Source of the DNA: a virus
Reading direction: 5' to 3' (one strand)
DNA: 40,304 nucleotides
Virus record (IMG/VR): IMGVR_UViG_3300032304_000751
Coordinates: 1 to 40,304 of that record
The notes under the pieces were generated by a model. It was not told the DNA's origin. It did no database searches and was given only the letters and a program-made list of their open reading frames with translations. Positions within the stretch are counted from its first letter, which is position 1; every line of letters starts with the position of its first letter. Below are positions 38,450-40,304 of the stretch, in pieces. The position numbers were made by a program, and so were the translations under genes.

Positions 38450-39070
38450 ATGATATTAAACTCAAACATACCAAGTTTTAAAGCTCTTGTAAAAAAGTCA
38501 TATTTTACTAAAGATGAAAAAGACAATAATGAATATTACAATGTCTATGTGTTTGGTATTCAATCTTTAGGTGGTAAAATACTTACATTTCATATATTAA
38601 CTGACTCTGGTATGTTAAGAAGTAGAGTTCCATTGTCTGAAATATATACTAAGATCCCCGTCAATGATATTCCTTATAATTATAAACAATTATGGGATTG
38701 CTTTAGTGAAAATGTAGCAGTTATAGAATATGATTTTTTGGCTTACCATAGAGGACAAGTAGTATTAAGAGATGGCACTAAAGTTTGGGGTACTTATATT
38801 TTTACTGTTGACTGGTATAATAATCCATACAGTGATGAACCTTCTGATTATAAGTGTGGACATATTCTTGAATCTGATGATGGTTATTTATTGTGCATGC
38901 CTAATAATAGAATATTTTGGAAAGATTCTAACTGGGTAACAAAAAAATTACCAGAAGATTTAAAACAATTTAAAGTTGATACAAATTTAGATTCTGTTGA
39001 AAACCAATCAGACAGATGGATAGTGGAAGATACTGACTCGTTTTATTATGATATAATAAAAAACAAATAA
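38450..39070 (+). CDS. Hypothetical protein (206 aa), first gene of the rightward operon
   Basis: The family of this 206-residue protein is not recognised. It is rich in Tyr, Trp and Asp, with motifs such as ILTDSGMLRSRVPLSEIY, DIPYNYKQLWDCFSENV, YDFLAYHRGQVVLRDGTKVW and YSDEPSDYKCGHIL. The last of these is followed by GYLLCMPNNRIFWKDSNWV. The pattern suggests a compact beta-rich globular domain without membrane segments or obvious catalytic motif. It is expressed from the rightward promoter, opposite to almost all other genes, and lies in an operon with a junction nuclease, so an early or host-takeover role is plausible but unproven. Confidence 0.7.
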   Translation: MILNSNIPSFKALVKKSYFTKDEKDNNEYYNVYVFGIQSLGGKILTFHILTDSGMLRSRVPLSEIYTKIPVNDIPYNYKQLWDCFSENVAVIEYDFLAYHRGQVVLRDGTKVWGTYIFTVDWYNNPYSDEPSDYKCGHILESDDGYLLCMPNNRIFWKDSNWVTKKLPEDLKQFKVDTNLDSVENQSDRWIVEDTDSFYYDIIKNK

Positions 39071-39853: not shown

Positions 39854-39885
39854 CCCCTGTTATTTTTATAACGGGGGTTTTTATT
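39854..39885 (+). terminator. Rho-independent terminator after ninG
   Basis: CCCCTGTTAT (39854-39863) and ATAACGGGGG (39868-39877) form a 10-bp stem with a TTTT loop and one T-G pair, followed by TTTTTATTT. The U-tract is only on the plus-strand side, so it ends the rightward operon. It abuts the stop of the convergent RHH gene. Confidence 0.9.
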
Positions 39886-40150
39886 TACAATTTTCAGACT
39901 TCCAAATAGCTAAATCTATCCCAGTTAATCCAATAGGCGGCGTATTTGGCGTTGTGGTAAGTGTATGACCTGCTGAGTTTAAATCAAAATATGAGGTTCC
40001 TGTACTAGAAATAGGTATATTTTTTAATGGTTTGCTATAATTATCCATTAAATAATTAACTACCTGTTGAACAGATGTCAAATTCTGCTCTTTTTGAATC
40101 ATATCCAACTTATCTAAGTCAAATCTAACTCCAATTGGTTTACTTTTCAT
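39881..40150 (-). CDS. Ribbon-helix-helix-type DNA-binding protein
   Basis: The 89-residue protein begins KSKPIGVRFDLDKLDMIQKE, a short beta strand (PIGVRFD) followed by helix A. QNLTSVQQVVNYLMDNY (23-39) follows as turn and helix B. This is the Arc/CopG/ParD-type layout, in which two strands of a dimer enter the major groove. The C-terminal half (about 45-89) is Thr/Pro-rich and may hold a partner-binding or oligomerisation tail, ending GLTGIDLAIWKSENCK. Its promoter lies within palindromic repeats, so it most likely represses itself and organises the repeat array. A transcriptional regulator, a plasmid-type copy-control or partition protein, or an antitoxin without its toxin are all possible. 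Confidence 0.7.
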   Translation of the reverse strand: MKSKPIGVRFDLDKLDMIQKEQNLTSVQQVVNYLMDNYSKPLKNIPISSTGTSYFDLNSAGHTLTTTPNTPPIGLTGIDLAIWKSENCK

Positions 40151-40163
40151 AGATTATTTTATT

Positions 40164-40304
40164 TGTAGCTACAAAGTTAGTAAATTATTTTAAATGTAGC
40201 TACAAAATTTAATTTAATTTAACCAAATGTAGCTACAAAATTTAATTTAATTTAACCAAATGTAGCTACAAAATTTAATTTAATTTAACCAAATGTAGCT
40301 ACAA
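40164..40304. repeat. Array of five TGTAGCTACA palindromes (operator/iteron array), runs off the window
   Basis: The perfect 10-bp palindrome TGTAGCTACA occurs at 40164-40173, 40195-40204, 40228-40237, 40261-40270 and 40294-40303. The first interval is 31 bp and the next three are exactly 33 bp, about three helical turns. From 40195 on the whole 33-bp unit is repeated identically, with an A/T-only spacer ending AACCAAA. The array continues to the last base of the window. Sites 1 and 2 overlap the promoter of the RHH gene. Confidence 0.9.
40172..40205 (-). promoter_or_regulatory. Promoter of the RHH gene embedded in its operators
   Basis: On the minus strand TTG (40205-40203) and TAACTTTG (40179-40172) are 23 bp apart, matching the Bacteroidota consensus at its longest spacing. 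The first palindrome begins within the -7 element and covers the likely start site; the second overlaps the -33 TTG. The arrangement predicts autorepression. Confidence 0.6.

Follow-up and report, generated by a model that had tools for sequence, protein, structure and literature searches.

A conserved palindrome array before a ribbon-helix-helix-like gene, a probable autorepressor operator at the inner edge of inverted terminal repeats in uncultured tailed phages of Bacteroidota

Results

The array and its gene

The stretch of DNA analyzed here, which we call the window, is the complete IMG/VR record IMGVR_UViG_3300032304_000751, a whole contig of 40,304 bp. At its right end lie five exact copies of the palindrome TGTAGCTACA, spaced at intervals of 31, 33, 33 and 33 bp, beside a gene encoding a small ribbon-helix-helix (RHH)-like protein (Table 1). 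No further match occurs elsewhere in the 40,304-bp window, even with up to one mismatch allowed. Five matches at one-mismatch tolerance were obtained in none of 100 dinucleotide shuffles, and when the last 424 bp were modeled in 20,000 Markov simulations, none gave two or more exact sites. The sequence and the shuffles thus confirm the array of five sites beside an RHH-like ORF that an earlier note on this DNA had described. The same note had placed all sites on one face of the helix, which is too strong a statement: 33 bp corresponds to 3.14 turns at 10.5 bp per turn, a drift of about 51 degrees per 33-bp interval, and the inner 31-bp pair alone is separated by nearly whole turns.

Table 1. 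Positions of the array, the regulator gene and associated features in the window and in related loci (L numbers).
Feature	Location	Strand	Remark
Site 1, innermost, TGTAGCTACA	40164-40173	.	read from the sequence
Site 2, TGTAGCTACA	40195-40204	.	31 bp from site 1
Site 3, TGTAGCTACA	40228-40237	.	outermost site of the closest relative, L017
Site 4, TGTAGCTACA, extra 33-bp unit	40261-40270	.	
Site 5, TGTAGCTACA, at contig end	40294-40303	.	
Tandem 33-bp units TGTAGCTACAAAATTTAATTTAATTTAACCAAA	40195-40304	.	three copies and one partial copy
RHH-like regulator gene, 89 aa	39881-40150	-	start 13 bp inside site 1
-7 element TAACTTTG (TAnnTTTG)	40172-40179	-	overlaps site 1
Candidate -33 element TTTG	40203-40206	-	overlaps site 2; 23-bp spacer to -7 box
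GIY-YIG fusion loci	L174:191-892 (= L325), L178:18-701, L326:15-713, L327:1948-2613, L328:86-751		
Lineages with terminal palindrome	L128, L249/L194, L171, L014, L255, L241, L256, L253, L254, L237		

The last 113 bp of the window (40192-40304) keep a perfect 33-bp period throughout, and because this run sits at the contig end, the number of sites is uncertain, being at least five as assembled. We consider it possible, although rather unlikely, that the array is partly a product of assembly and in truth numbers three sites, like those of the nearest relatives. The additional 33-bp units do not differ from one another, they lie at the contig end, and a doubled 33-bp unit was found in no viral contig other than the window; in addition, the contigs of relatives break at the same junction. 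However, the single 33-bp unit of the nearest relative, which is 94.8% identical to the window across 40029-40238, shares too little sequence between neighboring sites to create an assembler loop, so that at least two real 33-bp units seem to be needed. The 113 bp of 33-bp period also equal no common assembler k.

The window protein has a predicted N-terminal strand (MKSKPIGVRFD), two predicted helices, a variable linker and a C-terminal PP.GL.GIDLAIWKSEN. Among the 93 distinct sequences of the family in viral loci, the KSKPIGVRFD start is nearly invariant and a GLxGIDLxIWKxEN tail is conserved. A structure model of the window protein places helices at residues 12-21 and 27-38 after an unstructured or strand-like N-terminus (pLDDT 65), and the model of a distant homologue, L196, has the same layout (pLDDT 74); an unstructured N-terminus is expected of an RHH chain modeled without its dimer partner. 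Foldseek returned no significant match; its few hits include RHH-type or RHH-like chains such as VapB and TCP, with VapB11, TCP and MazE chains among the top ones of the L196 model. When aligned by hhalign with four RHH proteins, CopG and Arc among them, the family fell in register over the domain at a non-significant probability of 2.4%. Pfam gave no match for the window protein, and 18 relatives matched none of its RHH models; a sequence search of the PDB yielded nothing useful, and no relative was found among INPHARED/GenBank phages. The fold assigned in the earlier note therefore agrees with the strand/helix/helix layout but finds no significant match in sequence, profile or structure, and we consider the protein probably an RHH protein as judged from the models. 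In the window its gene is the first one behind the array and is followed by a convergent NinG gene, so that no further co-transcribed gene is evident there.

Conservation of the module in related phages

Relatives were collected from IMG/VR in two independent ways. A scan for a DNA pattern of two palindromes 12-40 bp apart, in which no protein was used, returned 119 stretches, and a protein scan returned 115 relatives, 80 of which were kept. The RHH gene accompanied the pattern-only arrays at 31 of the 34 with a 31-bp interval and at every one of those with intervals of 32 bp (38/38), 33 bp (30/30) and 43 bp (10/10). Arrays carrying the gene are AT-rich; pattern matches lacking it, mostly in GC-rich contigs and mostly with other intervals (22-24 or 34-35), were set aside as unrelated. 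Conversely, nearly all relatives found by the protein scan have the array. The array and the RHH gene are thus a conserved module. Its reach extends to L196, a distant relative (37% identity) in a Chitinophagaceae MAG, where two one-mismatch sites lie directly before the gene.

Collapsing these loci to 73 distinct arrays reveals a strict spacing rule. Two sites are present in 39 arrays and three in 33, while the window alone has five; the inner interval is solely 31/32 or 42/43 bp and the outer interval solely 33/34 bp. In operons that begin with a different gene, the array keeps its place at the start and the RHH gene lies downstream. The window carries a phrog_3704 gene at 38450-39070, a homologue of which is the first gene after the array in L171 and L184, indicating that genes behind the operator have been exchanged between phages.

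The innermost palindrome is fused to a TAnnTTTG box in 72 of the 73 arrays, against a background of 0.8%, which places the sites over the regulator's own core promoter, as in an autorepressor operator. The start codon usually follows 9-14 nt past the -7 box and site 1. Both overlaps that had been noted for the window, of one site with the -7 and of another with the -33 element, are present in its sequence; TTTG is found at site 2 in only 40 of the 73 arrays, and the -33 overlap is therefore not constant and less certain. The TAnnTTTG box of Flavobacterium psychrophilum occupies -12 to -5 (PMC9723704), by which reckoning site 1 would span about -6 to +4.

Five loci carry a fusion in which the RHH domain stands behind zinc-ribbon-like and GIY-YIG-like nuclease domains, named here from their motifs (Table 1). 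All five have CGTAACA repeats directly before the start codon, numbering four in every locus whose upstream DNA is complete. None contains TGTAGCTACA, while the RHH part is nearly unchanged. The exchange of palindromes for CGTAACA with the RHH part retained means that the palindromes need not be read by the RHH domain alone. The fusion is possibly a homing nuclease that replaced the operator.

An inverted terminal repeat beyond the array in relatives

In 60 of 150 loci of relatives the contig ends 100-175 bp outside the outermost site. An inverted terminal repeat accounts for these frequent ends. One relative of 66,344 bp (G021) has an inverted repeat of 1,295 bp that is complete at both ends, and in IMGVR_UViG_3300010970_000144 (69,590 bp) the two ends share 1,730 identical bp in inverted orientation, likewise complete. 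Five further relatives (G009, G010, G011, G019 and G043) show inverted terminal matches of 99-123 bp, the assembly stopping within the repeat. In all seven of these relatives the inner edge of the repeat falls close to the outermost TGTAGCTACA, from 7 bp on its inner side to about 25 bp on its outer side; other long records, which have a single assembled copy of the repeat, lie outside this comparison. Because the 99- and 123-bp terminal matches look like k-mer overlaps, the contigs appear to break where they do because the repeat is present twice. Hypervariability was rejected as the cause of the breaks, since identical and near-identical contigs mostly agree there.

The ORFs of the window are collinear with positions 27.4-66.3 kb of G011, and the TerL proteins are 86% identical. 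Very probably, the window thus represents 40 kb at the right of such a genome, truncated at the junction. Whereas the earlier note had the array running off the window, the array is indeed cut at the end, but that edge is the end of the contig, the window being a complete record. Likewise, what lies beyond was said to be unknown, which holds for the DNA of the window itself; its relatives, however, have a long inverted terminal repeat there. Judging by the relatives, the inverted terminal repeat of this phage, which contributes no sequence to the window, should begin at or just past the array. Since the two copies of the repeat do not differ, only one of the genome ends has an operator just inside the edge. 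At its left end (1-783) the window stops within a highly repetitive collagen-like gene with GTSGSSG repeats, and that break is probably a repeat break as well.

Contents of the repeat and palindromic ends

The non-coding stretch adjacent to the array is G+T-rich on the strand running toward the array, with a GC skew of 0.36-0.75 over the first 200 bp in 12 loci. Recurring short motifs were seen in this G+T-rich DNA at L134:3200-3560 and within the 180-300 bp that adjoin the array on its outer side in other relatives. Its possible roles include those of an RNA gene, an origin or a packaging signal. As an Rfam scan of the window and six relatives gave no match, it is not a known RNA family. A segment of the terminal repeat at L134:3085-3170 has a -7-like box, about 75 nt and a strong intrinsic terminator, all kept in related contigs, and is a candidate small RNA on these features.

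Outward-facing genes follow the G+T-rich stretch, a CopG-like protein among them and a RusA resolvase (PF05866, E 2.3e-15) last. At L249:2476-2655, inside the repeat and adjoining RusA, a small CopG-like RHH protein with a weak RHH_1/CcdA match is encoded, a second one besides the protein of the array. Throughout the 80 RusA loci the contig end lies at most 153 bp from the matched end of RusA, except in L249 (6,322 bp) and L314 (9,398 bp). These two contigs are perfect palindromes over their full length, that of L249 including the terminal repeat, the array and the RHH gene, and the center of each palindrome is presumed to be the genome end.

Immediately outside RusA lies the motif TATAATACTCA...ACGC.GAGTCTTT, followed by an AT-rich palindrome whose sequence varies by lineage (Table 1). 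The arms of these palindromes reach 63 bp at the contig ends of relatives; the palindrome of L109 has a TTGT loop and that of L243 one mismatch. The palindrome center lies 1.7-4.2 kb from the array in the loci that allow a measurement, with a lower bound of 5.0 kb in one locus; the repeats extend to about 5 kb. The 99.6% pairing in the terminal palindromes was discounted as covariation, since it follows from the fold-back of a single arm. The palindromes look like hairpin-type ends or the head-to-head junctions arising from them; in assembly data the two are indistinguishable, as is the position at which virion DNA is cut.

The replication genes were surveyed in 16 related records. A ResT/TelK-type protelomerase (PF16684) was found in none of them, a search with a weak control that matched in 1 of 14 genomes. 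DNA polymerase A was likewise found in none, and protein-primed PolB gave no match, with its control equally silent. The window encodes a primase/helicase, a replication-initiation-like protein and an ORF resembling SSB. The evidence suggests linear tailed-phage genomes whose ends may be hairpins.

Discussion

Function of the array

We propose, at a probability of roughly 0.8, that the array is the autorepressor operator of the RHH gene's operon and at the same time lies at the inner border of a long inverted terminal repeat, at the right end of a linear tailed-phage genome of about 67 kb. The earlier note had left the choice between a repressor array, a partition site and a cluster of origin iterons. 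Self-regulation is well supported, since in 72 of the 73 arrays the -7 box merges with site 1, usually with the start codon close by, whereas partition is unsupported and the origin-iteron part stands without positive evidence.

Hypothetically, the array would control an early phage operon that faces inward and whose products include an RHH-like repressor of the operon itself. The 10-bp palindromes would be bound by dimers of this protein, and occupancy of site 1 would block the -7 box and the start point. With site 2 some three helical turns upstream and site 3 a further 33 bp or so away, binding could be cooperative. Once enough protein had been made, the operon would be shut off by its own product. 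Direct observations are the palindromes, the rule that governs their spacing, the way they are fused to the promoter and their constant occurrence with the RHH gene; we infer from sequence the RHH fold, dimer binding, repression and cooperativity. That the inner intervals of 31/32 and 42/43 bp are one turn apart argues for contact between bound dimers. A role in lysogeny is not supported, as no tyrosine integrase (PF00589) was found in the 16 related records.

A different protein, from host or phage, might instead bind the array, with the RHH gene as merely its usual first passenger. The GIY-YIG fusions, which keep the RHH part but carry CGTAACA repeats, and the operons in which a different gene is first could be read in this way. 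We nevertheless think it improbable given the near-perfect co-occurrence with the RHH gene in a scan that used the DNA pattern only, and given the near-matching sites before the distant L196 homologue. Still less probable, in our view, is that the sites are iterons helping to open an origin located in the array or in the adjacent G+T-rich DNA of the terminal repeat. The adjoining non-coding DNA is strongly strand-asymmetric and present at both genome ends, as an origin there might be, but the array is present at one end only, relatives have two or three sites, outer sites are missing in many, and site 1 is fused to the promoter. Finally, a centromere-like role, in which the RHH protein would act like ParR or omega as an adaptor, loading onto the array together with a motor protein to segregate a phage-plasmid, is highly improbable: RHH proteins on phased short repeats serve partition in known systems, and the window resembles those of ParR, omega and ParG in having an RHH-like protein beside regularly spaced repeats, five in number, but AAA_31 ParA-type genes were found in 0 of 16 related records (controls 14/14 positive), tyrosine integrase was likewise found in none of them, and the sites, two or three in most relatives, are merged with and locked to the promoter.

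Comparison with known systems

As an autorepressor operator, the array would join a well-known class. CopG of pMV158, Arc and Mnt of P22, MetJ and the RHH antitoxins are likewise small proteins, with an N-terminal strand followed by two helices, the layout predicted here, and with short palindromes at approximately whole helical turns that overlap the protein's own promoter. The family described here differs from them in having no significant sequence match, in its 10-bp TGTAGCTACA palindrome, in its GIDLxIWKxEN tail and in the position of the array at the edge of an inverted terminal repeat. The closest known phages, the Flavobacterium elemo phages and the Cellulophaga phages, share the family of the terminase large subunit, at about 29% identity; the RHH-like protein has no INPHARED match, and the RusA matches no Flavobacterium or Cellulophaga record.

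The form of the genome invites two further comparisons. Kilobase inverted terminal repeats are, to our knowledge, not present in N15-type phages, whereas relatives of the window have them. Both G021 and the 69,590-bp contig carry such repeats, the feature by which a SIRV- or pox-like genome would be recognized; the terminal palindromes and the two fully palindromic contigs correspond to the palindromic telomere of an N15-like genome. The telomere phages N15, phiKO2 and PY54 (PMC12042878) likewise combine a tailed-phage genome with palindromic, hairpin-type telomeres, but neither a ResT/TelK-type protelomerase nor a SopA-like ParA was found here in the 16 records. The rudivirus SIRV2 and the poxviruses are alike in a linear genome, kilobase inverted terminal repeats, palindromic ends and a Holliday-junction resolvase gene (PMC3157427). 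For SIRV2, the resolvase is proposed to cut cruciforms at inverted-repeat junctions, giving nicked hairpin ends that a ligase could seal (PMC3157427). With RusA encoded at the very tip of the repeat, a SIRV2-like scheme of resolution is an attractive hypothesis here. These phages differ from SIRV2 and the poxviruses in being tailed, with terminase and portal genes, and in carrying RusA inside the repeat; covalently closed hairpins and resolution by RusA are hypothetical here.

Implications

We see an even chance that the window belongs to a large clade of uncultured tailed phages of Bacteroidota with linear genomes, kilobase inverted terminal repeats and hairpin ends, in which no protelomerase is recognizable and the ends are perhaps resolved by RusA, much as in rudiviruses or poxviruses, and in which the RHH array at the inner edge of the repeat is the early switch of one genome end. 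A search of the open-licence literature returned no description of such a genome form in tailed phages of Bacteroidota.

The operator itself adds a new example, unusually placed, to a familiar class of switches. It is well conserved, its natural variants number more than 70 and all keep to a strict helical spacing, and the array offers a fresh example of the co-evolution of operator and protein in phages of Bacteroidota. The larger point is its position, at the junction of unique DNA with long, palindrome-ended inverted terminal repeats. If confirmed, this genome form would be new for tailed phages of Bacteroidota within the open literature searched, and it would raise the questions of how terminase-driven packaging of such DNA works and whether an enzyme of the RusA type can stand in for a protelomerase.
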